Source: Quercus robur
Lineage: Eukaryota > Streptophyta > Magnoliopsida > Fagales > Fagaceae
Direction: 5' to 3'
NCBI RefSeq assembly: GCF_932294415.1
Contig: NC_065535.1
Coordinates: 23,276,782-23,340,781 of the forward strand
DNA length: 64,000 nt
Shown here: positions 1,709 through 48,509 of the stretch, in pieces
Layout of the letters: every line of letters starts with the position of its first letter
Numbering within the stretch: the first letter of the stretch is position 1
Program-made: the position numbers and the translations under genes
The notes under the pieces: generated by a model
Database searches by the model: none
Told to the model about the DNA's origin: nothing
The model's input: the letters and a program-made list of their open reading frames with translations, nothing else

Positions 1709-2233
1709 GTATGTTATCTTTTGACTTTGCAAATTTTGAATCATTTAAATTTGTAATTCATCCAACCCATTATATAAAAATAATCTATAATTTCTTCTTC
1801 TTTTTTCACCCTTAAAAAATGGTATTAAGAGTAATACTATGGTAGTGAGTTCTTCTTGACAGTGCAGGTAGTTATGCTGTTTTTGACTTTGCAATCGCAA
1901 CAATTTTTCTCTTCTTAGCGACTCGGTTTACAGTTGTAACAAAAATCATCCATTTCTCTCTCTCTCTCTCTCTCTCTACATTTTTCGCTTATGTATTATC
2001 ATTTTAGAATATCTCTAAATTTATTACACTCATCTCACCATTCTCAGTTTCCACCTTATCTCCTTTCAGACCATTTTTTCATTCTCTTTGTTAGTAGAAA
2101 GAAATTGTAATACTTCATTTATTTGCTTCCTTTTTTTTTTTTTTTTTTTTTTTTATGTTGATTTTTTTTTTTTTATTAGTCTAAAATTGTGATTTACAAC
2201 TATGTTTTATGTTAGCTTTATTCCATGATAAAA
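1709..2233. other. Non-coding, simple repeats
   Basis: Starts with the intron of the extra ORF. Contains a (CT)n run near 1955-1977 and T tracts near 2132-2155 and 2162-2174. No continuation of the ORF is recognisable, so the element appears truncated here. Confidence 0.5.
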
Positions 2234-3416: not shown

Positions 3417-3602
3417 TATTGATGAAAAACACAAACCAATTCTTGTCTTCATTATAGACTCAGGAATATAAGCATATACTAGCTGTCTAGAGTCAACGAA
3501 CTTGGAGGTTTGGATCACAACTGAGCCAATTGATCGGTTTAATTTGTTAGGAAAAAGCATTTGAAAATATATTTTAAAGTGTCAAATAAAATGGAAATGT
3601 AG

Positions 3603-5772
3603 GTATTGTTCGGCAATTAGCTGTGGAGCTTGACACCTTCAAGAATGAATATGATTTAGACGGAAACCATATTGGCATTGACACAACAAGCATGATAAAT
3701 CCGATTGCAGCAAAAAGTCTTAACGACACTGGCATTGAGCTCAAAAGTGGAAGAGATATCAAGGTCAAAATTGACTATGATGGTTGGAAAAAAATGCTTC
3801 AAATTTCAGTTGGATATTCTAGGAAACCATTAGTGACCGTTCTCGAACAATCAATAGTCATGTCTGACACGGTTCCAAGATCCGTTTTCGTGGGCTTTAC
3901 GGGTTCTACGGGGCTCGTCTCAGAAAGTCATAGGGTCATTGATTGGGTTTTCACATCAGTGCCATTGCCATCCTCTTCCATCCACAATGGGCATGAAAAG
4001 GACAACAAAATCAAGAAGATCGTATTGGTTAGTGTTACAACATGTTTCATGGTTTTGTTGGTTATAGTGACTTGCGTGTTTCTTCCATCTGTTTTAAGAA
4101 AGCTAAGGAAGAAAAATCAGAGAGATCTAGATATAGAAACTCAATCTAGGAATGCAGCAAATGTCCCTAAGATGTTTACGTACAAGCAGCTTTCAAAAGC
4201 TACTCGCAACTTCAGCAAGGAAAACTTGTTGGGTAAGGGTGGATTTGGAAGTGTTTACAGAGGTACCATCTCGGTTCCTCCAAAAGTCATAGCTGTCAAG
4301 AAGATTTCGGCAACCTCAAAACAAGGTATGTTACTTTGTTCTAATTCTATTGCATTGTTTCTTGATAATATTCTTCACGGTTTAGATTGATCCATTTGAA
4401 ATTGATATATTAAATATTACTAATTTGAAGTTATATATGAAATAAAATCTTTAACAATAAAATGGACTTTCTCCATTTGAGGATCTTAACAAAATAATAA
4501 ACCGTGAGTACATCATATTTATTTTGAAACAACAAAATACTCATGTAGTTCCTATAATTATATCCGAATTAATTCCTTAATTTGTCAGGATTAGTTTTTG
4601 TGCTTACACTTGTTTATTTTACTCTTCAAACTAAAGGTGAAAGAGAGTATATGGCAGAAATAAGCACCATAGGACGCATGCGGCACAAAAATATTGTGCA
4701 ACTACAAGGTTGGTGCCATGAGGGAGAGAATCTACTCCTAGTGTATGAATTTATGTCAAATGGTAGCCTAGACCGTTTCATAGGAAAGGAGTTTCTTGAC
4801 TGGGAAACTAGGTACAAAATATTGACAGGGTTGGCCTCGGCATTACTGTACCTGCACGAAGAATGTGGTGACCCTGTGGTTCATCGAGACATTAAGCCCA
4901 ACAATGTAATGTTAGACTCTGATTTTAATGCTCATCTTGGTGATTTTGGTCTTGCAAGAATTCTCCAAAATGATGCCTCTGTTACAACTATGCTAGCGGG
5001 GACTCCAGGATATTTGGCACCAGAAATGGGCTTCATAGGAAAGGCTACCCCAGAATCTGATGTGTATAGCTTTGGCATGGTAGTACTTGAAGTTGTGTGT
5101 GGGAAAAGATCAAAGGATATCATGGATGAACATGGTCTAGTACACTATGTATGGAATTTATACGGGGAAAATGGATTGCTCGAGTGTGTGGACCAAATGC
5201 TCCAAGGCAAATTTGACGAGGAACAAGTGAAGAGGACATTGATTGTAGGGCTTTCATGTTTGCACCCAGATTCAATGTTCCGGCCCAAGATGAGAAAAGT
5301 GGTGAATATTCTTATGGACCCAAACGAGCCCGTAATGAATTTGCCAGGAAATCGACCTAGTGGAGTATATGTGGTTTTCCCTTCTAATTCTTCTACTTCC
5401 CCAACAGACACTGATGGCTCTTTATTGCTTCAATCATCTATGGCATCGCTTATGAGCTCAAATGAGCCCATAATGAATTCGCCAAGAAGTCGACCTAGTG
5501 GAGCATATGTATTTTTCTCTTCTAATTCTTCTACTTCCACAACAGCCACTGATGGCTCTTCATTGCTTCAATCATCTATGGCATCGCTTATGAACCCAAA
5601 CAAGCCCTTAATGAATTTGCCAGGAAATCAACCTAGAGAACATCTATCATTCTCTTCTACTTCTTCTACTTCCACAACAACCACGGATATCAATTTTGGC
5701 TCAAAAAGTGGCTCTGCATTGCTTCAATCATCTATGCCATCGCTAGATGAGATTGAGGTCCAAAGTGACTAA
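3603..5772 (+). CDS. L-type lectin receptor kinase, copy 1 (first exon not present)
   Basis: Plasma-membrane receptor kinase of the legume-lectin type. Two exons are visible: 3603-4325 and 4637-5772, joined at ...SKQ-G-EREY (phase 1; GTATGT donor, AAAG acceptor). In order: the second half of the lectin domain (VELDTFKNEYD, ending VIDWVFTSVPLP), a transmembrane helix near 4021-4095, and the kinase domain. The kinase has the loop GKGGFGSVY, AVKK, HRDIKPNN (4882), DFG (4942-4950) and APE (5017-5025), so it is an RD kinase with its key residues present. By comparison with copy 2, exon 2 starts at the AG of 3601-3602 and the first exon (signal peptide, lectin front half) should precede it. No such exon is found between 1 and 3602. 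The C-tail is expanded by a 138-bp repeat. Either a truncated gene, or its first exon lies beyond the window behind nested retroelements. Confidence 0.75.
5314..5745 (+). repeat. 138-bp coding repeat, three units, in kinase C-tail
   Basis: Units start at the ATG codons at 5314, 5452 and 5590, exactly 138 bases (46 residues) apart. Each begins with NEP or NKP followed by a MN(L/S)P motif, runs through a Ser/Thr-rich stretch and ends LLQSSM. Copy 2 (16,797-16,945) has one unit only, so the expansion occurred after the duplication. Confidence 0.9.
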
Positions 5773-11649: not shown

Positions 11650-12220
11650 ACTCTATAAGGTCATCGACTTTAAGGTGACGTAGAATCCTTAATAAGCTGA
11701 CGGCACTTACAAGATAGACGATGACGAGGCCAACAGTTATATCTCATATTGACGGGAGGAAATGAAGTGACGACAAGCTACAAGACCGACAAGTTAGGTA
11801 GGCTAACGGTTCCAACATGGCTACGCGTGGTCCCTACGCGTGCTAGTATATGGAAATGCCTTGAGCATCATGTACCAAGGCCTTATTACGTGTCTTTCTC
11901 ATATGGAAAGACACCATATAATCACAAAAACCCTAATTCCAAATACCCTCCAAAAGGAAAGATCCCCACTTTTGGGGGATCTCGATTCACTACTTACCAC
12001 TATAGAAAAACTTAACCTCCTCTTTCCTCAGGTACATAGAAAATCCACAGCTCTCTCACAAAAGAGTTGATAGAGATTTCTCATTCACTAACTTGACCTT
12101 TGGAGGGTTTTTAGCCAGTATCACACTGGTGCTTTCTGTTGGTTCTATTGTTCTTATTCACAGGTACCCGTTGGAATGACCTGGAGCCTACAACTCATTG
12201 GCGATTTTAGCACATCATCA
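11650..12220 (+). repeat. LTR (3' part) of a truncated Tat-like Ty3 element
   Basis: Ends in CATCATCA directly before a PBS and a gag start, exactly like the 5' LTR of the complete element read on its minus strand. It contains TGACGG-type motifs typical of that LTR. The left border is approximate: it is taken as the point where the hAT reading frame stops. Confidence 0.5.
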
Positions 12221-13924: not shown

Positions 13925-16900
13925 ATGATGGACCCTATCACCTTCTCTTTCCCCTCATTCAATTCCAAAAGCTGCAGCAATAGATCGCTTATTTGCATGG
14001 GTTCAGTACTGACTGCAGGCGATGGATATACTTGAGCATTACACCTGAGCTACAAAACCAGGTTGGCCGGGTTCTATATTCCCACCCCGTGCTTGCATGG
14101 CCAGCCAATATCTGAACCATTTTCACTGTTAGAATTTAACTGGTTCAGGAGATGGAATGGCGTTTATATTTGCACAAAATAATGATCCCTCGCCACCAAA
14201 TAGCCAGGGCTTGTATCTTGGACTCCTTGATCGGTCAACCGAAGGTAAGTATATGGTAGAATAAAAAAACATATAGTTTACTATTTTAATGTTTGTGTTT
14301 GTATTAATTTGGAATAGAAAAATACATCAAACAAGCCTAGAATTGATAGTAAGACACCTAAAATTGATAAAAAGAACATTGACAACTAGGTAAATAGGCC
14401 ATAAAAAAGGAAAATATTCTTACACTTGTTATGTATTATTCACTTACATATGCAATATTCATAATTTCACATCTGTTCATATTTTTTATATTTTTTTTAA
14501 CACGTTTACATGTAACATACAAAATAAGGGATGTGTACAAACGATGTATACTAACGAATGTGTAATAATCAATGCCAATTGACATTCTCGTACTAATTAG
14601 TTGTGAGATTTTTTTAAAGGAATTTTTTTTTTTTTTTGACTGAAGAAGGTAGTTTTTATGGATTTTTTTAATTTTGGTACATTTTTTTATTTTATTTAAT
14701 GATAAAACTTAGTTGTATATATTAGGACTTCCAATTAAATTCAAAGTCATATTGCATTGAATTTAATCTCCTCTTTTTACAATGTTTTTTTATGCGTAAA
14801 ACTTGGCTGCATTGAAAATGAAACACAAATAGTAGTAGGGGAAAAGTTTTAGCTCCAAAATCAACTACTATGGATGAAAACAAAAACCAATTCTTGACTT
14901 CATTATAGACCTGGAATTTAAGCATATGCTAGCTCCCTAGAGACAATTAATTTGGAGGTTTATATCACAAGGAACTGAGCCAATTGATTAGTTTAATTTG
15001 TTAGGAAAAATCATTTGAAAACATATTTTAAAGTGTCAAATAAAATGGAAATGTAGGTGGTGTTGTTCGGCAACTAGCTGTGGAGCTTGACACCTACAAG
15101 AATGAATTCGATCCAGACGGAAACCATATTGGTATTGACACAATAAGCATGACAAATCCAGTTGCTACAAAGAGTCTTAACAACACTGACATTGACCTCA
15201 AAAGTGGAAGAGATATCAAGGTCCAAATTGACTACGATGGTTGGAAAAATATGCTTCATATTTCAATAGGATATTCTGGGAATCCATTAGTGACTGTTCT
15301 CGAACAATCAATAATCGTGTCTAACACAGTTCCAAACTCCGTTTCTGTGGGCTTTACGGCTTCAACGGGGCTCGTCTCAGAAAGCCATAAGGTCATTGAT
15401 TGGGCGTTCACATCAGTGCCATTGCCATTCCTTCCCACCAATAAAGGGTTTGAAAAAAAGGACAATATCAAGACCATAGTGATCATTGTAACAACGAATT
15501 TCATGATTTTGTTGGTTATATTGATCAGTTGCATGTTTCTTCCATCTGTTTTAAGAAAACTAAGGAATCAAAATCAGAGAGATCTGGATATAGAAAGTCG
15601 ATCTAGGAATGCAGCAAATGCCCCTAAGATGTTTACGTACAAGCAGCTTTCAAAAGCTACTCGCAACTTCAGCAAGGAAAACTTGTTGGGTTAGGGTGGA
15701 TTCGGAAGTGTTTACAAAGGTATTATCTCGGTTCCTCCGAAAGTCATAGCTGTGAAGAAGATTTCGGCAAACTCAAAACAAGGTTTGTTCTACCTCTATT
15801 GCATTGTTTCTTGATTATATGCTTTTATAAGTATTATGATCCTCTCCCTTTGAAATGGATCTATTTCATGGTCCACATAAGTATTATAAATCTAAAGATA
15901 TATCTAGTATCACATCATTTAAATACACTATTAGATTTATAAAATAAAATTTTAATTGTAAAATAGACAATCTCCAAAGGATTCTAACAAAATGCTACAC
16001 CTTGAGTGGATCACATGTAATTTGAAACAATATTTAACTTGTAATTTAGTTCCTATGATTTATTGCAAATGATTCCTAAAATTTGTTTTTGTGCTTATAC
16101 TTTTATTTTTTTAACTCTCTAAACTATAGGTGAAAGAGAGTACATGGCAGAAATATGAACTATAGGACGCATGAGGCACAAAAATATTGTGCAACTCCAA
16201 GATTGGTGCCATGATGGAGAGAATCTGCTCCTAGTGTATGAATTTATGCCAAATGGTAGCCTAGACCGTTTCATAGGAAAGGAGTTTCTTGACTGGAGAA
16301 CTAGGTACAAAATATTAACAGGGTTGGCCTCGGCATTACTGTACCTGCCCAAAGAATGTGGTAACCCTGTGGTTCATCGAGACATTAAGCCTAACAATGT
16401 AATGTTAGATTCTGATTTTGATGCTCATCTTGGTGATTTTGGTCTCGCAAGAATGTTCCAAAATGATGCCTCAGTTACAACAACGCTAGCTGGGACTCCA
16501 GGATATTTAGCACCAGAAATAGGCTACTCCAAAATCTGATGTGTATAGCTTTGACGTGGTAGTAATTGAAGTTGTGTGTGGGAAAAGAGCAAAGGGTATC
16601 ATGGATGAACATAGCCTACTAGACCATGTATGGAATTTATATGGAGAAAATGTATTGCTCGAGTGTGTGGACCAAAAGCTCGAAGGCAAATTTGATGAGG
16701 AGCAAGTGAAGAGGACATTGATTGTTGGGCTTGCATGTTTGCACCCAGATTCCATGTTCAGGCCCAAGATGAGAAAAGTGGTGAATATTCTTATGAACCC
16801 AAACGAGCCCATAATGAACTTACCAGAAAATCGACCTAGTGGTGTATACTTATTGGTCTCTTCTAATTGTTCTACTTCTACTTCCACAACCACTAATTTT

Positions 16901-16981
16901 GGCTCTAACAGTGGCTCTGCATTGCTTCAATCATCTATGGCATCGGTAGATGAGATTGAGGTCCAATATGACTTGCTGTGA
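13925..16981 (+). pseudogene. L-type lectin receptor kinase, copy 2 (pseudogene)
   Basis: Three exons can be traced. Exon 1 (13,925-14,244) carries the lectin front half: MMDPITFSFPSFNS, VGRVLYSHPVLAWP, then GDGMAFIFAQ and LGLLDRSTE. Exon 2 (15,057-15,782) carries the lectin back half, a membrane helix and the kinase start. Exon 3 (16,130-16,981) is the rest of the kinase. The 812-bp intron lies inside the lectin domain, in phase 1. Lesions: frame changes within exon 1 (around 13,990-14,140), TAG at 15,692-15,694 in the glycine loop, TGA at 16,156-16,158, and a 14-base deletion near 16,526 just after APE. HRDIKPNN and DFG are retained. The C-tail has a single repeat unit. It supplies the gene model for the truncated copy 1. 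Confidence 0.85.
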
Positions 16982-25719: not shown

Positions 25720-25724
25720 TATAC

Positions 25725-26349
25725 TGATGATGCTGAAAATACCACCAGTAAGCCGCACAGTCCTCGCGCACTACAAACGGCACTTGCACAATAAAAAGAA
25801 AGGACCTAGCAGAGAGTACAGGTGTGGTACCAGCCAAACACCCTCCGAAGGTCAAGTCAGAATTATTCTCACTGCTCTAGAGTGCTAGAGAGAGCCAATT
25901 ATGTGTACCTTGGTTTGTGAGGGAGCATGGTTTTTATAGTAGTAGGGCTTGCCTCCTTTTCCTTGGAGTAGAAGTCTTTTCCTTATAGGAGTCTCCTTGG
26001 ACGTATTTTGCGGGATTCTTTGATTTCTTTCCATATAGGAGTCCTTTAGGTTTCATGAAGCGTGGGGAGCAAGTTATTTACTTATACACGCAAACGTGGT
26101 GATCAAGCATTCAATAGATTGACACCGTCAGTCTATGTTGTTCTGTCAGATTCAGCACCATCAGTTTCAGGATGTCCAGTTTTATGGTATTTTACATGGA
26201 GTTCCTTCACACCATATTGCCTTCAGCTCTTTAGAAATGCTGACGGCAAAGTGGAGTTCCTTCACACCAAATCGCCGTCAACTCTTTAGATATGCTGACG
26301 GCAAAACGTGTCCCGTCACCCTTGTCCTTCACTTATTTTATCCTCATCA
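25725..26349 (-). repeat. 3' LTR of the Tat element (left copy)
   Basis: 625 bp, TGATGATG...CATCA. Aligns end to end with 35,597-36,180. It is longer because of an extra partial copy of a GTTCCTTCACACCA / GCTGACGGCAAA segment near 26,200-26,310 and a small insertion near 26,019-26,025. The minus-strand TATA (CTATAAAAAC) lies at 25,930-25,939. Confidence 0.95.
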
Positions 26350-26365
26350 CTTGCCCCCTACTCCG
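26350..26365 (-). other. Polypurine tract of the Tat element
   Basis: On the minus strand CGGAGTAGGGGGCAAG abuts the 3' LTR, the expected position for plus-strand priming. Confidence 0.65.
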
Positions 26366-26519
26366 TCAGTCTTTATACTGACGGGTCATGGAGTTTATTT
26401 TTCAAAGAGGCAGGGATTTGTATGGATCTGTGTATTTAATGCTTTGGACAGGTGGCTCGTTTCTATTGGCTCTGCTTCTAACGAGGTGTCACTTCGTCTT
26501 CCGCGCCCTTTTTCTCATA

Positions 26520-26527
26520 TATAAATA
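26520..26527 (+). promoter_or_regulatory. TATA box of the convergent extra ORF
   Basis: TATAAATA inside the element, on the plus strand, opposite to gag-pol. It is followed by a CT-rich leader and a leader intron (GTAAGT donor at 26,656, TAG acceptor at 26,751-26,753). Same octamer and spacing type as at 561-568. Confidence 0.55.
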
Positions 26528-26761
26528 GCATCTCTCCCTCATTTTCCACTATTTCAACCCTTGGAGAGAGAGTTCGTCGCCCACTTTTCGCCATCTTTAC
26601 TCCCGTCAGCTTATCCGTCGCTGTCTTTAGAGCCATCCAGAAGGCCACCATATTGGTAAGTTTTCATCTCCTCTCTTCTTTCTTCTTTTTTATTTTTTGC
26701 CTCATTAGTGAGGACGTCAGTCTAGGTACTTAGATTGAATCCGTCACTTGTAGGTAGTCAG

Positions 26762-28942
26762 ATGTCAAGTGACGCGTCATGTGAGGAGTCGTCAATCCGC
26801 GAAGGAGCGGGCTACGACGAGGCTTTTGGTTCTGGAAATGAGTCAGAGGACTCTTCAATTCCGTCAGAGAGAGAGACGTCGGCCCAATCTCCTGACGGCG
26901 ATGAGAGTTTCGCTGAGGGAGATGAGGATGAGGAAAGAGGGGATGGAAACGACGAGGATGAGATGGATGTTGACGGAGACGATAGTGACGGGGATGAGGG
27001 ATCTAGTGAAGGAACTATGGAGGGTCCCGGAGATAACCGTCCCTTCATTCTCCCTGAGGATTGGGCCGTTAACAAATTTTTGCCTAGGATGAGCGGTAAG
27101 GTTTTTAGGGAGTTGCGTATTCGTTACCAAATCTCAGACCACATCCCAATCCGTCTCCCTGGCGAGAATGAGAGGTGTTACTCTGGGAGGACTGCTGACG
27201 TTGGCATGTATGATGCCATGTTTGCTGCGGGCTTGAGGTTGCCTTTGACGGCTATACACTGTCAGCTTGCTGACTCCCTGGGCATATCTGTCACCCAAAT
27301 TGCCCCAAACGCCTAGAGGACCTTCATAGGAGCTGAAATCCTGTGGGGTAGTTTTAGTGGAGGACACCGTCAGCTTACGTTAGGCGAATTTTTTTATTGT
27401 TATAGGCCTCATCATATTGCCTCGTCTAAGGGGACATATCACTTCAATGCTAGGGAAAAAGAGTTACGGCTTGTGTCAGACATGCCAGATTCCAATAGGA
27501 ACTGGAAGAGTAGGTATTTTTTCGTTAAGGGGACGGATTGGGTTTGCCTTCAGGAGGAGTGGGCGACAATGCCCCACGGCTATTTTGACAACACCTGGGC
27601 CTTTGTCAAGGACTCAGGTTGATCCCGTCAACTATGTTCCTTCTGTTTTTTTTTTTTTTTTTGAAGTAACGCTACTAACACTTGCTTTTGTTTCTTTCAG
27701 CCTATATCCATCCGCACATAACTGACGAGCAAGAGGAGTTCATCCAACGGATTCTGGAAATCCCTTTGGAAGACCGTAAGTGCAGGGATTTGATCACCCT
27801 TGACACCCTTCACTTATACTGTGGGGGTCCAGAACTGTCAGCGGCAGTTCGAAGGTTGGAAGAGTTTGCACGTTGACGTGAGTGGACTTTTATTTTCCCC
27901 GTAAGTTTCATTCCTCCGTCCCTTGCCCTAACAGTCTTTTTGTGTTGTAGAGATGGAATCTGCGAAGTAAAGGATAAGGGCTGCCGCAGCTCGTCAGAAG
28001 GAGGAGAGGAAGGCTAAGGAGGCAAGGAGGGAGGCCTCGTCAACCCCCAAGGCCGTCGCTAAGGTGGCGAAGAGGAAGCCCGACGGGATTGACAACCGTC
28101 CCTCAAAAAAGGCTGCCATTTCTCCTGGAGACGAACCACTGAAGGACAAATCCCCTCCGAAGCCTAGCCAAGGCGCGGGCAAGGGGGTGATGACTTCTAT
28201 TGGTCCCGTCAGCGAGGGTTCCTGCCGCCTCCTGACTCATAAGGAATATGCCATCGAGGAGGTTGAATCTTTGAAAAACCGACGGACATAGAGCCTTGTG
28301 ACCAGGTGGGGACGGAGGATTTAGGGGCGTCTGCCCTCTTCGATCTCACCAGGGTATGTTTATTACATTTTTGGTTGAACAAGTTTTATTTTGTTTTGGT
28401 ATACTTTTTGACTGACGGATATGTTCTTTTAGGCCTTGGTGCGCGTCAAGGCCCTTCGCGACCGTTGTGTGGCGAAGGAGGGGGTCGTCACCCAAGTTCA
28501 TAAACATAACACGAACCTGTTGAATCAGCAAACTCAGTACAAGGAAGCCGTCCGTATCCTCAACCAGGAGCTGCAGGAAGTTAAGGAGAAGCTGACGAAG
28601 GTCAGCTGTCAGAATGACAAGCTCCAGGGAGAGGTGACGGCTCTAGGGGAAAAGTTACAGACGGCGGGGGCTGACGCGATTAGAGACTTTACAGTGTCGC
28701 AGTCTTTTATTGACCCATGTGCCAAATATTATGGCACTGGGTTCGATGATTGCCTTCGGCAGGTCGCGTCGGCCTTCCCGGAGTTGGACTTGTCTGGGAT
28801 TACCATGGATGATGGAGATGATGACTCTCCTCAGCCTAACCCTACTCCGGAGCATGACGGTAGTGTAGTCCTAGCTCAGCCTGCTGCTAACCCTGCTGCT
28901 TCTGATTCTCCAGCCGTGATTGTGGATATTGAAGACCATTAA
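26762..28942 (+). pseudogene. Convergent multi-exon extra ORF of the Tat element, copy 2
   Basis: Proposed coding exons: 26,762-27,617, 27,701-27,877, 27,951-28,353 and 28,433-28,942, all with GT-AG borders. The frame joins are consistent at DS-A-YIHP (phase 1) and LTR-ALVR (phase 0). Order of parts: an acidic Asp/Glu/Ser N-terminus (about 90 residues), a globular GLRLPL domain shared with the ORF at 749-1708, a Lys/Arg-rich linker (KRKPDG, PSKKAA), a coiled coil (NQELQEVKEKLTK onward) and an acidic Pro-rich tail. Lesions: TAG at 27,314-27,316 in place of the conserved Trp of the NGWR motif, TGA near 27,874, TAA at 27,968-27,970, and a frame change near 28,280. The basic and acidic patches plus coiled coil suggest a nuclear, nucleic-acid-associated or gag-like role, but that is speculation. 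The start is the first ATG after the leader intron. Confidence 0.7.
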
Positions 28943-29469
28943 GCTGACGGCAACTCTGCTGACGTTCCTGCTGCTTAGTTTTTATGTTGCATTTTAGCTA
29001 TGTACAAAATAGTTGCATTTTAAACATTTGGAAAACAGTTGTAGTTTTAAACAATGTTTAAGTGCCCTTTTGGTTTTCTTCGGGCTTTTGTTTATGTACA
29101 GTTGTGTATGCGTTTAGTTCCGTAGCTTTTATATCTCTTTATTGATGATGACCCTAGACGAAATTTTGGTAAAAATTCTCGTCTGTTTGGAACCTGTCAG
29201 TTCTTTGAACTGTTGGAAGACTCCGTCGGCATTACATCGTGCCCAGTCTTCTTACCTTATTTGTTTTACGGGTTTCCTGTTGGATTTTCAGCCTTGTTTT
29301 TTCCAAGCCCCGTCAGCTTGGTGACCGTCCAGTTTTCTGTTTTGTCTGCTGGAGCCCGTCGATTTACAGCTTTTGTTGGTTGGTCGCACCATTTAATGGT
29401 CGTCAATCTCTTAAGACCGTCAGCTTTTTTAGTTTTGGCCTTGATGACTGTCATCATTGTAGGTCTTTT
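28943..29469. other. Spacer between extra ORF and minisatellite
   Basis: Untranslated region of the Tat element rich in CCGTCAG/CTGACGG motifs. The apparent short frames have no homology. Confidence 0.5.
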
Positions 29470-30020
29470 GGTTTGAGGGCCTTGTCCATATGATGATAGC
29501 TTCATCTATGGGACCGTCAGGTTTCTAGCCTAAGCTTTCGCTGACCTTGTAATCTTAGTAGGTCCGTTGGTTTTAGGACCCCGTCCACATGATGATAGCT
29601 TCATCTATGGGACCGTCGGGTTTCTGGCCTAAGCTTTCGCTGACCTTGTTATCTTAGTGGGTCCGTTGGTTTTAGGACCCCGTCCACATGATGATAGCTT
29701 CGTCTATGGGACCGTCAGCCTTTTGGCCTTAGCTTTGCTGACCTTCTTTATGGGCCCGTTGGTTTCAGGACCCCGTCCTCATGATGATAGCTTCATCTAT
29801 GGGACCGTCAGCTTTCCTGGCCTTAGCTTTTGCTGACCTTGTCATCTTAGTGGGTCCGTTGGTTTTAGGACCCCATCCACATGATGACAGCTTCATCTAT
29901 CGGACCGTCAGCTTTTTGGCCTTAGCTTTTGCTGACCTTGTCATCTTAGTGGGTCCGTTGGTTTTAGGACCCCGTCCACATGATGATAGCTTCATCTATG
30001 GGACCGTCAGCTTTTTAGTC
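29470..30020. repeat. Minisatellite of about 99 bp in the Tat 3' untranslated region
   Basis: TGATGATAGCTTCATCTATG recurs at about 29,491, 29,590, 29,689, 29,782, 29,882 (one variant base) and 29,981, giving spacings of 99, 99, 93, 100 and 99 bases. Each unit contains GGACCGTC, GCTGACCTTGT and GGTCCGTTGG (with variants). It lies between integrase and the extra ORF. Tandem arrays in this position are known from other Tat-lineage elements. Confidence 0.9.
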
Positions 30021-30301
30021 CGTGTGTTATGGACTTGGTCGTTTGATTTGTTCACTTTTGCGAACTTAGTTGCCCATTCTGTGGATTCTAAGCCGTAGGT
30101 TTCTAAAATAGATACATTAGCAATTTTGAATAAACTCCTTTTATTGCCATGCATTTGTAAATAAAAGTATTTAAAACCAAATCCTGCCCTTTGGGCTTAA
30201 AAAAAAGTATTGTTGCAAAAAACTAAAGTAAATGATAAATCTAAGAAGTAAAACTAAAATTTGCTGGAATAAAAAAGAGGTTGGTCTTCATGCTGCCGCT
30301 C

Positions 30302-30836
30302 CTACTGGTAATACTTTCGTAGGTGCTCAGTGTTCCATGGGTGTGGTAGTTTCTGTCCTTCCAACATCTCTAGGTGGTAAGTGTTTTTCCTCTGCCATGA
30401 CGTAACTCGGTAAGGTCCTTCCCAATTGGGGCCGAGTTTCCCTTGGGTAGGGTCCCTAGCGGCACCCATGACCTTTCTAAGAACAAGGTCTCCAACTTGG
30501 AAGTCTCTATGTCGGACCCGAGAGTTGTAGTGTTTGGCCATGCGGTCCTGGTACCTAGCGAGCCTTTGTTCTGTTGCTGCTCTGATCTCGTCCACTAGGT
30601 CGAGCTGTAATCGCATAGCCTCGTCGTTTTTGTTCTCATCATGGTTGTGCATCCTGTAGCTTATGAGTCCAACTTCGGCTGGGATGACTGCTTTCGCCTC
30701 CGTACGTCAGTCGGAACAGTGTCTCTCCTGTGGGTGTTCTTGCCGTCGTCTTGTATGCCCATAGTATACTTGGCAATTCTTCGGGCCATATACCCTTTGC
30801 CCCCTCGAGCTGAGTCTTGATAATCTTGAGCAAGAA
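30302..30836 (-). pseudogene. Tat integrase C-terminal part
   Basis: Continues the pol frame after a TGA at 30,839-30,837. The first part reads LLKIIKTQLEGAKGIWPEEL. After a one-base insertion near 30,697 (GGCGAAAGC in place of GGCGAAGC) the frame shifts. The second part (30,652-30,302) carries DRMAKHYN, the basic DNA-binding module FQVGDLVLRKV, KLGPNWEGPY and the end HLRKYY. It would bind DNA in the integrase but is not translated in frame with the core. Confidence 0.85.
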
Positions 30837-33404
30837 TCAGTTCGTGACCTGGCCATTAGCTTGAGAGTGGGCGGGGGAGGAGTAGTGGTTCTTTATTCCT
30901 AACTGTGAGCAAAAATCCCAGAAGGGGTCGTTGTCGAATTGCCTCCCGTTGTCCGAGACAAAGACTCTAGGAATGCCAAACCTACATATGATGCATCTCC
31001 AGACAAAGCTTCGCACGTTCTTCTCTGTAATTGTGGCCAAAGCTTCAGCTTCCACCCATTTCGTGAAATAGTCAATGCCCACTACCAGGAATTTCAGCTG
31101 TCGTGCGGCTGTAGGGAATGGTCTCATAATATCTAATCCCCATTGTGCGAACGGCCATGGGGCCGTCATCGGGGTCAGCTCTTCAATTGGTTGTCTAATA
31201 ATATTGCTGAACGTTTGGCATTTGTCGCAGGCCCTGACATAGGCTTTGGCGTCCTTCTGCATGGTGGGCCAATAATACCCTGTTCGCACAAGCTTGTGTA
31301 CCAACAATCTGGACCCTGAGTGGTTTCCGCAGATTCCTTCATGTACCTCTCTCATGACGTAATCTACCTCTTCCGTACCCAAGCATCTCAAATATGGTCG
31401 GGAGAAACCTCTTTTGTACAGGACGTCTTTTATCAGGACGAACCTCGCCGCCCGGACCTTAAGCTTCCTTGCGGCCTCCTTCTCATTTGGTAAGACCCCG
31501 TCTTTCAAATATGAAGCTATCGGCGTGGTCCAGCTGTTTTCGGAGCATATTTCCTGCACGTTGCTGGGATCTATTAGCGGAGAAAGCTGAACGAAAGAAA
31601 GTACATTACCCGGGATGACCATTTGTTCTGTTGAAGCGGCCTTTGCGAGGCGGTCGGCTCGCTCGTTTTCTCCTCTAGGAATTTGGACAACTTTAGCTTC
31701 CAGGTCATCTGCTCTCGCCCTGACTTCATCAAGGTATTTCTTCATCCTTTCACCCTTGCACTTGTAGTCTCCATTTATTTGGTTAGTGATGACCTGAGAG
31801 TCGCAGTAGATGACGACCCTTACGACTCCTGCTGCTTTGGTGAGGTCGAGCCCTGCTATCAGCGCTTCATACTCCGATTCATTGTTGGTAGCAGGGAAGT
31901 CGAGAAGGACCATACATTCAATGATGTCTCCTTCGGGCGATAGTAGCACAATGCCAGCCCCTCCGGCCTGTTTGTTGGACGACCCGTCCGTATATATGCT
32001 CCAGTGAGGGGACTCTTCTGCCCCCTTGACTTCGTTATGGGTGAATTCGGTTATGAAGTCTGCGATGACCTGTCCCTTGATGGCGGTTCGCAGGCGGTAC
32101 TGAATATCAAACTCGCTCAGTTCTATAGCCCACAACGCTAATCGACCCGCAGCCTCGGGATTGCTCATTGCCCGTCGTAACGGCTTGTCGGTCAGAACGT
32201 TCACCGTATGGGCTTGAAAGTACGGTTTGAGCTTGCGGGCTGCCGTAACTAACACAAAGGCGAGTTTTTCCATGGGCGGATACATTTCTTCAGCACCGCG
32301 AAGCGCTCGGCTTGCGTAGTACACGAGCCTTTGTACTTTTTCCTCTTCTCTAACTAAGGTAGCACTTACAGCTGCAGGGGAGACGGCTAGATAGAGAAAA
32401 AGCTCCTCTCCTGGCTGTGACGGGCTCAGTAGCGGTGGGGAGGAGAGGTAAGCCTTCAATTCTTCGAATGCTTGTTGGCATTCGACCGTCCACTCGAAGG
32501 ATTTCTTTAGCGTTCGGAAGAAGGGTAAACACTTTTCTGTTGCCCTTGATACGAACCTATTCAACGCCGCTACTTTTCCGTGAAGGCTTTGCACCTCCTT
32601 CACATTCCTTGGTGGTGTCATTTCCATGATCGCCCGGATCTTGTCCGGGTTGGCCTCGATGCCCCTTTGGGACACCATGAATCCTAAAAACTTTCCTGTC
32701 ATAACTCTAAAGGCACATTTTCCTGGATTGAGCTTCATGTTGAAGGAGCAAAGTGTGTCGAACGTTTCTTTGAGATCTGCCAGATGATTTTCCTCCCTCC
32801 GACTCTTTACTAGCATGTCGTCCACGTAAACCTGGACAGTCCTCCCAATTTGTCGTGCGAACATTTTGTTCATTAGTCTTTGGTATGTTCCTCCTGCGTT
32901 TTTCAGGCCGAAGGGCATCACTTTGTAACAGAAGAGGCCTTGACTAGTGACAAACGACATCTTTTCCTGATCAGTTTCGTACATTCTAATTTGGTTGTAC
33001 CCTGAGAAAGCGTCCATGAAGCTCAGCAACTGGTGTCGGGCCGTCGAGTCTACAAGTACATCGACTCTAGGGAGAGGGTAGCTATCTTTGGGGCAGGCCT
33101 TGTTAAGATCGGTGAAGTCCACACACATCCGCCATTTCCCGCTCGCTTTTTTGACCATTACCACATTTGCTAGCCAGTCGGGATAGTACACTTCCCTGAT
33201 GAAGTTTGCTTCCTGTAGCTTTCGGACTTCTTTTGCTATGACTCGATCTCGCTCGGGAGCGAACACTCTCTTCTTTTGTCGAATAGGTGGAAAGGTGGGC
33301 GATACGTTCAATCGGTGCACCATGACTGAAGGATCTATCCCCGGCATATCTTCATGACCCCAGGCGAATACATCTCGATTGCCTCTGAGGAAGGTAATGA
33401 GTTC
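30837..33404 (-). pseudogene. Tat pol: reverse transcriptase, two RNase H domains, integrase core
   Basis: A long open frame reads downward from 33,347 (836 residues), preceded in frame by 19 codons after a TAG. Reverse transcriptase: WRMCVDFTDLNKACPKDSYP, MPFGLKNAGGTYQRLMN, active site YVDD at residues 174-177. Then the usual Ty3 RNase H, and a second RNase H beginning WSIYTDGSSN with NNESEYEALI and YCDSQV, the archaeal-type domain of the Tat lineage. The integrase has the zinc-binding H/C region (HEGICGNHSG, CDKCQTF), the core Asp in GLDIM and the Asp in SDNG. The third acidic residue is missing: the motif reads QANGQVTN where family members have a Glu before VTN. This integrase could not be active. 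Confidence 0.9.
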
Positions 33405-34448
33405 CTAACGGATAGCGGGGTGTGCGAGTGTTCCAATTTTGGTCGTTCGACCAGGATCGGAACTGTCAAGGGGTATCTCTTCTAACCTTTCTACTGGCTC
33501 TGTTGTTGTCCGGTGTTCTTCTATGCTTAAAGCTTGAACTAATTCTTCCATTTCCATCATGGCCACGTAGCATTCGCGTGCGGCCATCTGACTTCTGCGT
33601 AGCTCTCCTACTCCGTAGTCGGTTGGGAACTTAATCATCAGGTGGTAGGTGGAAGTTACCGCCTTCCACGAATTGAGCGTGGGTCGTCCGATGATAGCGT
33701 CGTAGGCAGACGAGCAATCGACCACCAAGAATGTCACGTCCTTGATTATCTGCTGAGGGTAATCACCTACCATTACGGACAATGTGACCGCACCCAGGGG
33801 GAATACTCGGCTCCCTCCGAAGCCAACGAGCGGGGCATTTGTCGGAACCAACTGCTCCCTGTCGATCCTCATCTGCTGGAATGCTGGGTAGTATAAAATA
33901 TCTGCTGAACTGCAATTGTCGACCAGCAGTTGGTGCATGTTGTATTCTTCTACCTGCAAGCTGACGACTATCGCATCATCATGTGAATGGTGAAGGCGTC
34001 GTGCGTCTTCTTCTGAGAACCCAATTATGGGGCCTTCTCTTCGTGCTATCTTCGGCACGACTCCCGTCAACTGAACATTTTGTACCATCCGAAGGTAGGT
34101 CTTGCAGGCCTTCTTGGATGACCTGGCGACAGTTGTTCCTCCTATGATCATCCTTATGTCCCCTATCGGGGGCCTCGATCGCTCGTTATCTCGTTGAGGG
34201 CGTTGGTCTTGTGCAGGAGGATCCACCTTCTCCTTGCTAACGAATCTCTGCAGTTTTTCTTGTCTGATAAGAGCCTCAATCTGCTGCTTGAAGTCATAGC
34301 AATCAGCCGTATCGAGACCATGGTTGCGGTGGAAAGGGCAATACTTATCCCTGGAACGTTTGTTGGGGTCACTCTTTAGCTTTCCCGGGAATGTCAGCGC
34401 CTCCTCGTCCTTGATCTGCATAAGGACTTGGTCTATCGGGGCTGTCAA
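33405..34448 (-). pseudogene. Tat gag C-terminus and aspartic protease
   Basis: An open 347-residue frame starts with the end of gag (YCPFHRNHGLDTADCYDFK, a Cys/His cluster) and continues into a retropepsin domain. The active-site region reads LLVDNCSSADILY (Asp 177). Tat proteases usually have DNGSSAD, so the Gly has become Cys. The flap and second half contain GGSRVFPLGAV and AIIGRPTLNSW. The frame ends at TAG (33,407-33,405) and resumes in frame as pol, so protease and reverse transcriptase once formed one polyprotein. Confidence 0.85.
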
Positions 34449-35531
34449 CGGAGTGAAGCTCGTGAATCTTCCTCCCAGGGGCTTAGAGCGCCTCTCGTCC
34501 CTTCGGTCTCCTGTTCTTGTCTTCTTTCGGCCTTGGTCCTGCCGAGTGTCTTCTTACCTTTCTCTTTTCCTGGGCCTCTCTTCTCGGGTTAAGAGCGCAT
34601 CTTCAGCGTTCATATACTTTGTGGCACGATAAAGTACTTTTGACATGGTTTTTGGGTTGTTTTCGTATAGGGAGAACAAAAACTTACCATTTTTCAAGCC
34701 ATTCGTGAATGCCACAACAAGTATCTTATCGTCGGCTTCGTCGATCGAGAGCGCCTCCTTATTGAATCAGGATATGTAGGCTCTTAGAGTTTCACCCTCT
34801 CGCTGCTTCATGCTCATCAAGCAAGCCGTAGACTTCTTGTATCGATGGCCTCTAATGAAGTGTGCGGTAAACTGAGCGCTGAGCTCTTTGAAGGTGCTGA
34901 TGGAGTTTGGTGTCAGTCGGCTGAACCAAATTCTCGCTGCGCCCTTCAGTGTTGTAGGGAAGGCCCTACACATGATGGCGTCCGCTACTCCTTGAAGGTG
35001 CATTAGGGTCTTGAAGGTCTCCAGGTGGTCCAGTGGGTCCTTGACTCCGTCATAACTATCTATCTGCGGCATGCGGAACTTACTCGGTAAAGGGTAGGAG
35101 TTGACGGTGGCGGTGAACGGCGAGTCAATTCGGTTGACAAGGTCGTCAAGGTCGCTTGATACTCGCCCCTTGAGAGCATTCATCATAACCTCCATTTGTT
35201 CCTTCATGGCCTGCATCTCCGCGATAACAAGTGGTGGAGTGGTTTCTGCGAGGGAGGGGATGCTTATGTTCTGTCGTTCTGGTTTGCTCGGGGCGTTGCT
35301 GGCCTGAGGTCCCTCTTGGTTTCTTCTGTTGGCGCTGGTTCCTTCTTGATCTGCTCCTTGGTTGTCTGGTGCAGCGTTCTTTTGGCGCAATTGCTCTTCT
35401 AGGTCGTGGTTTTGTCGAGTGAGGCGTTCCAAGGCCGCGGCAAGAGTCTTGACTTGCTTCTCAAGGGCGGTTATGGGTGGTTCTTCTTCTTGAATGTCAT
35501 TAGTGGTTGCCATTGAGCGGGTGAGTACCAT
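34449..35531 (-). pseudogene. Tat gag
   Basis: Starts at ATG 35,531 (MVLTRSMATTND; an alternative start at the second Met). A Gln/Glu coiled coil (ALERLTRQNHDLEEQLRQKN) is followed by MQAMKEQMEVMMNALKG and the retrotransposon gag domain with LDHLETFKTLMHLQ, MCRAFPTTLKGAARIWF and TFKELSAQFTAHF. TGA at 34,769-34,767 stands in place of an Arg codon after LRAYIS. The sequence continues (FNKEALSIDEAD, then YMNAEDAL) to a broken stretch before 34,448. It is the homologue of the plus-strand fragment at 12,292-13,090. Confidence 0.9.
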
Positions 35532-35578
35532 GCGACTTTTGTGCGAGAAGCGGTAATATGACTTTACACTACGTGTTT

Positions 35579-35596
35579 CCCACAGACGACACCAAC
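35579..35596 (-). other. Primer-binding site of the Tat element
   Basis: On the minus strand, GTTGGTGTCGTCTGTGGG follows the 5' LTR end directly. It is not the initiator-Met type (TGGTATCAGAGC). The primer tRNA was not determined. Confidence 0.6.
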
Positions 35597-36180
35597 TGAT
35601 GATGCTGAAAATACCACCAGTAAGCTGCACAGTCCTCGCGCACTACAACGACACCTGCACAATAAAAAGAAAGGACCTAGCAGAGAGTATCGGTGTGGTA
35701 CCGGCCAAACACCCTCCGAAGGTCAAGTTAGAATTATTCTCACTGCTCTAGAGTGCTAGAGAGGGCCAATTATACGTACCTTGGTTTGTGAGGGAGCATG
35801 GTTTTTATAGTAGTAGGGCTTGTCTCCTTTTCCTTGGAGTAGAAGTCTTTTCCTTATAGGAGTCTCCTTGGGCGTATTTTGCGGGATTCTTTCCATATAG
35901 GAGTCCTTTAGATTTCATGAAGTGTGGGGAGCAAGTTATTTACTTATTCACGCAAATGTGGTGATCAAGCATTCAATAGACTGACGCCGTCAATCTATGT
36001 TGTTCCGTTAGATTCAACACCGTCAGCTTCAGGATGTCCAGCTTTATGGTATTCTACGTGGAGTTCCTTCACACCATATTGCCGTCAGCTCTTTAGAAAT
36101 GCTGACGGCAAAGTGGAGTTCCTTCACACCAAATAAACGTGTCCCGTCACCCTTGTCCTTCACTTATTTTATCCTCATCA
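35597..36180 (-). repeat. 5' LTR of the Tat element (right copy)
   Basis: 584 bp, TGATGATG...CATCA. Transcription runs leftward, with TATA CTATAAAAAC on the minus strand at 35,801-35,810. Flanked on its outer side by TATAC (36,181-36,185). Confidence 0.95.
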
Positions 36181-36185
36181 TATAC

Positions 36186-44979: not shown

Positions 44980-45845
44980 GAAGTGTCATCATCACCTTCC
45001 TAAACACCGATAGAACAAAAAAAAAAATTGATTGGATGCGATTTTTTGAGAAAGGAAATTTTGCAATTTATTCAAAGGAAAAACTACTAATTTTCACATG
45101 TTTCATATAGTGGCTATTAATATAGGCTCAATAGATCATAAACAACAATTTTTCCAAGAAGGAAAAATTGCAATTCATTCAAAGGAAATACTACTTACTT
45201 TAACTTTCACATGCTTCATAGAGTGACTACTAATATAGGCTCAATAGATTATAAACAAAATATGGTAACTTGAGAAGAGCAAGACTTTTTTAATAATTCG
45301 ATCGATCTATATTGGGTCGAGAATTTGAACATTGGATATTTTTGTTAGAAATACTAGGAATTGTCAATTGAATTACAAGACTCTTGGCAAATATGATTGA
45401 AGACTAAATCCCAATAAAAAATCTAGAACTATTTTAAGAAAGAATCCTAGAAACCTTGTGATTGGCTCTCAGAGTCATTGTTCCTGAGAATCACTCCCAT
45501 TTGAATTATATGGGCATACAAATATGAAGGACATGGATATATTATAAATTACGTGGTAACAATTTATTTAGTTTTTTTTTTTTTTGAAAACTTTTCGTTG
45601 TCAGTATATTAAAGTATATTTGTCCTTTAAAAGAGTGAGAAAAAGTAAGAAAAATGTCATGTATAGCTTTTAAAATTTTTTTTTCTTACTTTTCTCCAAT
45701 TTTTTTTTTTCATTTTTTTTAAGGTACAAATATACTTTAATATACTTTCAGCAAAAAATTAGATAAATTGTCCTCAAATTGACTAAAAGCTAAAAAGTAA
45801 AAAGCTGAACTTATAATATGTTATAAACACACGTGGACTCCTACA
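44980..45845. other. Intergenic
   Basis: A short direct repeat: GGCTCAATAGAT(C/T)ATAAACAA with its preceding 60 bases occurs near 45,075-45,145 and 45,170-45,260. A reversed tRNA-like repeat is seen near 45,290-45,400. No gene. Confidence 0.45.
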
Positions 45846-45848
45846 TAA

Positions 45849-46254
45849 AAGCATTTCCATTGGCAATTGTAAATGGTATATGTAGGGAAAATTTAGCATA
45901 AAGGCACAAAAAGAGTCCAGCAACCGGACTTGTAAAATCTTACAATTGCAAATTTTTTTTGCAATTGTGCTACAATGCCATCCTAAATGTAGGCTGACAC
46001 GGTAGCACTTTAATAAAAATTATAATATATTTTTATTGATAAAGTGAAAGAGAGATGAGAGAGAAGAAAGAGAAAGAGTTGTATTGGAATATATTATATT
46101 ATTTTAATGGGTAATATATATTATTTTAATGAGTAGAATAAAAAAATAAAAGTTGGAATGTTGGTTGTGTTGTAAAATAATATAGTATAATTGATAAAAT
46201 AATTTTTTAAGATGATAAAATAAAATATGATGGAAGTTGCGGATGCGAATACTC
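45849..46254. mobile_element. Small Harbinger-like MITE (tentative)
   Basis: Flanked by TAA at 45,846-45,848 and 46,255-46,257. The ends AAGCATTTCCATT and, reversed, GAGTATTCGCATC match at about 8 of 13 positions. AT-rich, non-coding. Confidence 0.4.
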
Positions 46255-46257
46255 TAA

Positions 46258-47084
46258 CGTCAAATAAAAAGAGCTTAAAGCTCTATCTTTGTTTTATTGA
46301 CTTAAGCATAAGAGGATCCCAGTAAAACAGAACCAGCGACAAGTGTTTGTAGGTGAAGATCTGCTCGTGTAATCAAAATCTGCACCAACAGGCAGTATAA
46401 AATTCACTAATCACCATAAAATGTTTAGCACCGACATGTAATGTTCACATTAAAATGTCCAACTATCCTGACTTCTGAATGATCCGTTTGCCATTAATTT
46501 CAGCACAAACCGATCATGATTCCATCAATTTGAAATAGGACAACACTGGCTGCATCAAGGTTTCCAATTAAAATATTCATATTCTACTCACTTATTTTAC
46601 ACCATACTTGTGAAGGTATCCTCTTATCTAAACCAATAAAGAATGCTGGCCGACAAGCTTTTGGCAATATTCCAAAATTTGTCAATGTCTCACAGCTAAG
46701 GACTAGTACATTAACATTTGACACCTCATGTCTAATTGGTGCTTATATACTAAAAAGTTGATTTTCAACCCATTAAACTTTTAGATTTCAGGTATTGACC
46801 AACAAGTTCACAGTTCAGAGACTAGTTTCACTCAATGAAGCAGTTCACTACTTACGGCTTCTTCATTCAGAAGAAAAGTGTATGCGGCTTTGTCAGTAAA
46901 TTATGTCTTTGAAGTATGTCCAAGCAAAAATGCAAAACAAATCTTCATCATGAAACTTCAAACAAGGCGCAGGATTAACAGTGATCTTCAATTCATCCAA
47001 CTCATTAATTATTTCGGATTTATTGCTTTGGGACTTTAGGGAGATGGAAAAAAAAGAGTGGAAAATAGAAGAGAAAATGAGTGA
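46258..47084. other. Intergenic
   Basis: Balanced composition, no open frame of note, no gene recognised. Confidence 0.45.
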
Positions 47085-47370
47085 GATGTTTGGTTGAGAG
47101 GTAGAAGGGGAGAGAAAAGTGGTGGGGCCCACAAGTTTTCTCTCCTCCCTCTTCAAAATACCATCTCTTCAAATTGGAGAGAAAATTGGAGTGAAAAGTG
47201 GAAAAAATATTTGGACAAAATTACCCCCATATCTTTTAGCGTTTCTAGCTTCTTTTTTCTTTTTTTTTTTTTTACCTTTTTCTTTCCCTGGTAATGCTGA
47301 CTTTTTGTTTTTGTTTTTGTTTTGTTTTTTTTCTTTCTTTGGTTTTGTCAGGACATGGTGGTCTCTTCGA

Positions 47371-48509
47371 GTCTTTTGACTAAAAATTGCCAAAAATTGA
47401 GTTGATTGTTGTTATAGGTATTGTTCAAAGTTATTTGGCAAAATGAGGAGAGAGACTAAATTTCAGCAACGGTGTTGCCGAAATTGCAAGAAAAAGTACA
47501 ATGTGTCAGGGGAGAGAGAAAATTGAATTTCGGTAATGAGATTACCGAAATTCTTGTCCTGCCCGTACTGCTCGAAATGGAAATCAATTGTGGTAATGGC
47601 ATTGCCGAAAATGGTAGAAAAAAAAAAAAGAAAAAAGAATTGTGGCAACTACGTTGCCGAAAATGGAGGGAAAAAAAATGCTACGTTCACAACAAATTCA
47701 GGTGATTAGTTGTTATTGATTTAAATTTAAACCTAACACTAAGATTACTTTTTTTGCCCTAATAATAACAATCAGTAACAACCTACTACTTAAAATTTGT
47801 TGTAAAAATCTTGTGGACGTATCATTTCTAAAAAAAAATTGTGGTGCCGAAAGAGAAGGGAAAAAAAAAAAAAAAGTGGCAAATTGTTTTGTGGCAATGG
47901 CATTGCCGAAATAGAGGGGGAAAAAAAAAACAATTTGCCACTTTTTTTTCCCCTTCTATTTCGGCAATGCCATTGCCACAAAACAATTTGCCACTTTTTT
48001 TTTTCCCTTTTCTTTCAGCACCACAATTTTTTTTTAGAAATGATACGTCCACAACATTTTCACAACATTTTTATAACAAATCCTAAGTGACAGGTTGTTA
48101 CTGATTATTATTATTGGGACAAAAAAGTAATCTTAGTGTTAGATTCAAATTTGAACCAATAATAACTAACCACCTGTAATTTGTTGTGAAAAATGTTATG
48201 GATATAGCATCTTTTTTTTCCCCTCCATTTTTGGCAACTTAGTTGCCACAATTTTTTTTTTCTCCCATTTTCAGCAATGCCATTGCCACAATTGGTTTCC
48301 ATGTCGAGCAGTGCGGAGAGGACAAGAATTCCGGTAATCTCATTACTGAAATTCAATTTTCTCTCTCCCCTGACACATTGTACTTTTTTCTTACAATTTT
48401 GGCAACATCGTTGCCGAAATTCAGTCTCTCTCCTCATTTTGCCAAATAACTTTGTACAGTACCTATAACAACAATAAACTCCATTTTTTGCAATTTTTAG
48501 CCAAAAGAT
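47371..48509. repeat. Long inverted repeat, arms of about 560 bp
   Basis: The left arm from GTCTTTTGACTAAAAATTGC is mirrored by the right arm ending GCAATTTTTAGCCAAAAGAT; the centre is near 47,940. Paired landmarks include GTACAATGTGTCAGGGGAGA (left) with TCTCCCCTGACACATTGTAC (right), and GTGGCAATGGCATTGCCGAA with its complement. Arms are mostly matched by eye, with scattered substitutions and small indels. Short nested palindromes of the type GGCAATGGCATTGCC occur within the arms. Confidence 0.93.

Follow-up and report, generated by a model that had tools for sequence, protein, structure and literature searches.

The retrotransposon and its surroundings

The window (the whole 64-kb stretch of DNA analysed here) looks like plant nuclear DNA: it carries genes for lectin receptor kinases, PPR-DYW proteins and transporters. 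Two copies resembling L-type lectin receptor kinases lie at 3590-5769 and 15044-16978 (plus strand); the latter, of which two pieces were scanned, gave a lectin match and a sub-threshold kinase match, and may be decayed. The gene at 54129-55976 (minus strand) codes for a PPR protein that has E, E+ and DYW deaminase domains, and it seems to be one of the usual genes for RNA editing in organelles. A 10.5-kb Retand-type Ty3/gypsy LTR retrotransposon lies on the minus strand at 25725-36180, recognized by its LTR pair and the order of its domains.

The element is bounded by a 3' LTR of 625 bp (25725-26349, minus strand), which a purine-rich tract adjoins, and by a 5' LTR of 584 bp (35597-36180, minus strand), and it is flanked by a 5-bp TSD, TATAC (25720-25724 and 36181-36185), as is proper to Retand elements. 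The K2P distance between the LTRs is 0.050: 586 sites were aligned, in stretches that hold 2 extra bases each, and 28 of them carry substitutions, of which 25 are transitions and 3 transversions. At plant substitution rates of 1.3e-8 and 2.5e-9, this distance corresponds to an insertion age of 1.9 to 10 million years. A 55-bp tandem duplication at 26197-26305 in the 3' LTR, single in the 5' LTR, carries one GCTGACGG site per unit, and gave or preserved one additional CTGACGG in the 3' LTR.

Pol (30302-33404, minus strand) encodes RT, RH, a second RH and integrase, with one frame running through 30837-33404 in which the matches are RVT_1 (positions 83-242), RT_RNaseH_2 (304-402), RVT_3 (471-589), H2C2 (678-731) and rve (750-845). 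An SH3-like match in another frame, at 30302-30706, is weak (24.0 bits against a cut-off of 30). An open stretch at 33405-34553 (minus strand) lies in the frame of pol and ends with a stop at 33405-33407; no Pfam match was found for it at E 0.01. Gag occupies an open frame at 34767-35642 (minus strand; Retrotrans_gag, 43.4 bits) that, taken from stop to stop, includes 46 LTR bases. Gag-pol is read in several pieces, owing to the stop at 33405-33407 and to frame changes at 30706-30837 and 34553-34767; in many Retand clusters gag and pol form two separate ORFs (PMC11963269).

With a further RNase H domain placed between RH and integrase, the element matches the RT-RH-second RH-INT order described for Ogre and Retand (PMC6317226). 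Additionally, the LTR lengths, an internal region of 9,247 bp and a distance of about 3.95 kb from the end of pol (30302) to the LTR edge (26349) fall within the Retand ranges of 315-1,194 bp, 7.4-12.9 kb and 2.9-6.6 kb, respectively (PMC11963269). An earlier reading made from the sequence alone (the sequence-only reading) had placed the element in the Tat lineage, and the second RNase H order, the sizes and the TSD bear this out and fit the Retand type. Between pol and the 3' LTR the element also contains a minisatellite (29415-30016) with a 99-bp unit, present in about 5.8 copies at 29449-30014.

An antisense gene with a TRP28 domain

An antisense gene sits between pol and the 3' LTR, on the strand opposite to gag-pol, in the position typical of TRP28 ORFs. 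The sequence-only reading had proposed that this gene has a promoter box of its own, and one is found: the TATAAATAG box (TATA) lies at 26520-26528 (plus strand), within the internal region and 171 nt from the LTR edge, and the ATG at 26762 is 242 nt downstream of TATAAATA at 26520. A putative leader intron (GTAAGT ... CAG) at 26656-26761 (plus strand) is plausible. Further downstream, the plus strand is open at 26726-27316, 27317-27622, 27971-28291 and 28433-28942, and GT-AG borders, judged by eye, permit four coding exons with junction phases 1, 1 and 0. The antisense gene is probably spliced.

All four coding exons are on the plus strand. The first (26762-27617) holds an acidic head and the TRP28 domain, and the second (exon 3, 27701-27871 or -27877) ends at either a weak donor at 27872 or a stronger-looking one at 27878. 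The third (exon 4, 27951-28353) is basic, and the last (exon 5, 28433-28942) encodes a heptad-patterned stretch and an acidic tail before a stop at 28940-28942. The product composition proposed earlier agrees with what we computed: the acidic head has a net charge of -31 over 93 amino acids, the basic piece of exon 4 +12 over 106 and the tail -14 over 84, and in the heptad pattern of exon 5 the a and d positions are hydrophobic at a fraction of 0.72 (shuffle p 0.0002).

The continuous coding frame assumed earlier is not borne out in this copy. A TAG at 27314 falls inside the TRP28 domain (the GLRLPL domain of the sequence-only reading), a TAA at 27968 lies in exon 4, and a TGA at 27874 is in frame when the exon-3 donor at 27878 is used. 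Within exon 4, the entering frame differs from the frame that reaches the donor at 28354, which puts a break in the frame somewhere in the interval from about 28262 to 28306. The four-exon model stands for its GT-AG borders and junction phases, but the phases are consistent only if the exon-4 break is ignored. The 26762-28942 copy lacks the intact open frame of a TRP28 accessory ORF and, given the stops at 27314 and 27968 and the exon-4 frame break, cannot make the protein. At the LTR distance, neutral drift over 1,869 nt, a count that omits the stretch holding the TGA at 27874, would be expected to give 1.1 nonsense changes and two are seen (27314 and 27968); decay after insertion thus fits neutrality.

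Despite this decay, the domain can be identified. With an X placed at the stop, it aligns to positions 5-66 of PF04195 at 16.8 bits, below the curated cut-off of 26.2, and the first exon matches a second, Pfam-positive TRP28 copy in the window by BLASTP (E 9e-21). This second, diverged TRP28 ORF, which the sequence-only reading did not mention, lies at 916-1812 (plus strand; PF04195 69.5 bits, E 3e-19) with TATAAATAG at 561. The box occurs three times in the 64-kb window when both strands are counted (561, 19146 and 26520), two of these upstream of TRP28 ORFs. An AlphaFold2 prediction of the GLRLPL domain, suggested earlier, was run on two rows and returned a worthless model (mean pLDDT 34.6).

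Amino-acid identity between the two copies is 51 of 151. At this level synonymous sites are expected to be saturated and pairwise dN/dS is unsuited, so that identity by codon position was used in its place. Over 150 codons, positions 1, 2 and 3 are 52, 61 and 33% identical, and none of 20,000 permutations was as extreme, which shows that, until this copy decayed, the frame had long been preserved at the protein level. A phase-1 GT follows 27617 in one copy and 1708 in the other, 85 and 82 nt past the last aligned residue; this match in place and phase, picked by eye, is suggestive support for the gene model. Taken with the upstream TATAAATAG and the codon-position identity, the ORF at 916-1812 supports the proposed gene model. 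The interval in the second copy that corresponds to the leader intron is 38 nt (685-722), which we judge too short for an intron, and the leader intron is thus not clearly common to both.

The second ORF also contains an exact 135-bp tandem duplication (1186-1457) within its domain. After an acidic, serine-rich head comes a stop in frame, at 913-915. Perhaps it belongs to another Retand-type element that begins outside the window. Searches of contig collections confirmed none of 10 pattern matches for the antisense exon among viral contigs and none of 15 for a piece of it among genome contigs, and pol gave one viral match at 30% identity. As these collections are viral and prokaryotic by description, the absence of relatives in them means little.

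The stops and the frame break of the 26762-28942 copy are what might be expected if its open frames and splice borders had arisen by chance. The TRP28 homology and the codon-position constraint make that explanation very improbable; they rule out a chance ORF for the TRP28 domain, whereas the evidence for the downstream exons is weaker. We are nearly certain that the antisense gene is a decayed TRP28 accessory gene of Retand type, antisense in the interval between pol and the 3' LTR, and probably spliced.

Genes of this kind have a literature of their own. TRP28 ORFs lie antisense in 97% of recent Retand clusters and are characteristic of Retand, and TRP28 is predicted to bind DNA, with a regulatory role suggested (Vicient 2025, PMC11963269). 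The same source reports TRP28 as absent from two recently active sunflower clusters and tandem arrays in 32 of 63 representative elements; thus, neither is strictly required in every family. In a wider survey, Transposase_28 was found in 23% of Retand elements, and extra ORFs were described as diverse, with their function in general doubted (Neumann 2019, PMC6317226). Descriptions of the accessory gene family go back to the 1990s (Grande, RIRE2; cited in PMC7264820), and its function is still reported as unknown; for gene23 of maize Grande, an upstream promoter drives antisense transcription (Gomez-Orte 2013, as cited in PMC7264820) and the protein is nuclear (PMC7264820). The sequence-only reading had presented the locus as an uncharacterised system, a description that the published TRP28 antisense ORFs do not allow, and its main ideas are not new, as the accessory ORF, its promoter and silencing by antisense RNA are all in print.

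Part of that literature concerns RNA. Regulation might be exerted by the antisense transcript and not by the protein, through pairing with genomic RNA, through dsRNA or small RNAs, or through a block to reverse transcription. The antisense position and the TATA box of the gene's own are consistent with this, antisense RNA silencing and pairing have been proposed and discussed for such elements (PMC7264820), and antisense RNA of Ty1 provides a precedent (PMC12786077). However, the two diverged copies retain protein-level constraint, which RNA pairing would not need, and we regard an RNA-only role as unlikely. A trans-acting protein, as suggested earlier, is possible for intact genes of this kind, but the broken copy studied here cannot supply one.

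A dispersed CTGACGG motif

The heptamer CTGACGG, whose dispersion the sequence-only reading did not mention, occurs 22 times in the element and twice in the other 53.5 kb of the window. Three sites lie in each LTR, three in the promoter and leader, five in the antisense gene, including an intronic one, two in the spacer and six in the minisatellite, with no site in gag-pol. An inverted CTGACGG pair at 26363-26384 adjoins the purine-rich tract at the edge of the 3' LTR. The sites are found on either strand; introns hold some of them, and those in exons occur in all three frames. The pattern is that of one whole element.

Window-wide dinucleotide shuffles gave 1.62 CTGACGG on average and never more than 5, whereas the window holds 24. 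The stretch 25725-29414 leaves out the minisatellite; within it, CGTCAG reaches a Poisson log-likelihood score of 70.9 relative to the rest of the window, compared with a best 6-mer score of 22.4 in 300 random windows of the same size and 18.2 in gag-pol. Control windows contain strong words as well (CGGAGC, TGGCAA and CCGAAA), with scores up to 22.6 against 70.9. The G+C content of the element exceeds that of the rest of the window; comparisons of this kind are inflated as a result, and tests within the region are safer. Second-order Markov shuffles of 25725-29414 predict 0.79 CTGACGG where 13 are observed, and across 200 such shuffles the commonest 7-mer made up of three or four different letters reached 10 copies. 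Within the exons, TGACGG occurs nine times against 2.6 by synonymous shuffling (p 0.0015).

Two other parts of the window show related observations. At 12088-12158 (minus strand), 71 bp are 77% identical to the LTR of the element, with TGACGG nearby at 11698 and 11750; this is perhaps the relic of a related element. In 45000-48000, TGCCGAA / ATTTCGG is over-represented, with TGCCGAA found six times against 0.3 expected.

An excess of this sort could reflect neutral slippage or conversion that spread pieces of the minisatellite through the region, with the accessory gene as a passenger. Consistent with this, the minisatellite itself contributes six of the 22 CTGACGG sites, and one LTR site is a duplicate made by the 55-bp tandem repeat. 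However, at the 21 TGACGG sites outside the minisatellite (one tandem twin dropped) no flanking position carries more than 0.48 bits, so that the sites share little beyond the hexamer and are not copies of one block. A mere passenger also fits poorly with the codon-position constraint and with the retention of TRP28 in 97% of recent clusters (PMC11963269). Neutral spread seems to us a rather unlikely source of the motif.

The sites may instead be read by the host. If CTGACGG were a host TGA-type bZIP site that serves a stress response, TRP28 could have its role elsewhere, for example in nuclear import or integration. TGACG is the core of TGA-factor (TGA-bZIP) sites, in which the usual next base is T. 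TGA itself stands for TGACG motif-binding factor (PMC11893830), and sites with this core are present in both LTRs and in the promoter. Against this, of the 43 TGACG in 25725-30016, 28 have G as the next base and four have T, the usual one. Sites are also found in the minisatellite, the spacer and the exons, which are not promoters, and TGACG is absent from 1,725 bp of sequence surveyed around the second copy of TRP28. We consider a host bZIP origin improbable on balance.

We favour, tentatively, the reading in which the word belongs to the element, and the surroundings of the second TRP28 copy offer a candidate word of their own. GGACGA occurs there at five sites with a score of 11.3 (null median 6.6, null maximum 22.6), which does not clearly set it apart from the top-scoring 6-mers of random windows. 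A Markov test gives an expectation of 0.31 and five or more sites in 0 of 1,000 shuffles; the word was picked beforehand, and this test is thus not independent. GGACGA is also found seven times in the element at 25725-36180. The dispersion of CTGACGG is an observation new here, and the motif may be a candidate target of the TRP28 protein.

A possible element-encoded reader and its known counterparts

The antisense gene is ordinary as a gene, and its value lies in the motif. We suggest, as a possibility that we place well short of an even chance, that intact TRP28 proteins may bind the dispersed motif of their own element and regulate or un-silence it in trans. The analysis shows that the gene is homologous to TRP28, has decayed and was once constrained as protein, and that the motif is enriched; for transcription, splicing, nuclear entry, TRP28-motif binding and the outcome of binding we infer the following course. 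In intact copies, the promoter just inside the 3' LTR would yield a separate mRNA, the product of which would be a nuclear protein with an acidic head, a TRP28 domain, a basic linker and a coiled coil. The TRP28 protein would bind a short word peculiar to the element (CTGACGG in this case), spread over both strands of the LTRs, the accessory promoter, the accessory gene and the minisatellite. Protein bound at many sites could then act in trans to activate or un-silence both the element and related ones, in the manner of VANC proteins on VANDAL DNA transposons.

Stated more broadly, Retand elements would carry their own sequence-specific system of anti-silencing or activation, with TRP28 as the reader and a family-specific word as the address, multiplied through the LTRs, the accessory promoter and the minisatellite. 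The word would be CTGACGG here and perhaps GGACGA in the family at 916-1812, the two having a GACG core in common; we hold this reading to be doubtful. If true, it would explain why Retand elements retain both an antisense gene and fast-changing tandem arrays. The dispersed motif makes TRP28 function testable, the question being whether TRP28 binds the word amassed by its own family. Such binding would give the arrays and the antisense genes of an abundant plant lineage a shared explanation. Local dips in CG methylation are reported for Retand and eight other lineages (PMC12844716); shared so widely, they do not discriminate.

The closest known counterparts are the TRP28 ORFs of Vicient, with which the gene studied here shares its position between pol and the 3' LTR, its antisense orientation, the TRP28 domain, a nearby tandem array and the sizes of element and LTRs. 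It differs in that this copy is broken, in the multi-exon structure and shared TATA box proposed here, and in the dispersed CTGACGG-like motif, of which the accessible passages of PMC11963269 make no mention. Like gene23 of Grande, it is read antisense within the 3' internal region and has an upstream promoter of its own, here one predicted from the TATA box; nuclear localisation is reported for Grande, and the likeness is one of description. The antisense genes of HTLV (HBZ) are similar in being antisense accessory genes with a separate promoter and a proposed role as nuclear regulators (PMC11963269, PMC7264820). In HTLV, however, the antisense promoter lies in the 3' LTR (PMC7264820), whereas the TATA box here is internal, and no sequence relation is claimed.

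In its proposed mode of action, the system resembles the VANC anti-silencing proteins of the VANDAL elements. The 9-base motif to which VANC21 binds lies in non-coding regions, many of which form tandem repeats, and the words of the related VANC6 differ (Hosaka 2017, PMC5735166). VANC has been cited in a paper on retrotransposon methylation, which, in the passages available, speculates on ORFs of Tork and Athila and not of Retand (PMC12844716); among the matches listed for the open-licence literature, in the parts accessible, we found no binding motif for Retand or TRP28 and no comparison with VANC. The likeness is one of layout, in that both pair a protein encoded by a transposable element with a short motif in its non-coding parts and tandem repeats (PMC5735166; Sasaki 2023, PMC10398659). 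VANDALs are DNA transposons, whereas the element here is an LTR retrotransposon, and the motifs differ. Additionally, VANC targets non-coding DNA, whereas CTGACGG spares gag-pol yet is present in the exons of the antisense gene. If the proposed system is real, TRP28 and its motif would do for LTR retrotransposons what VANC does for VANDAL.
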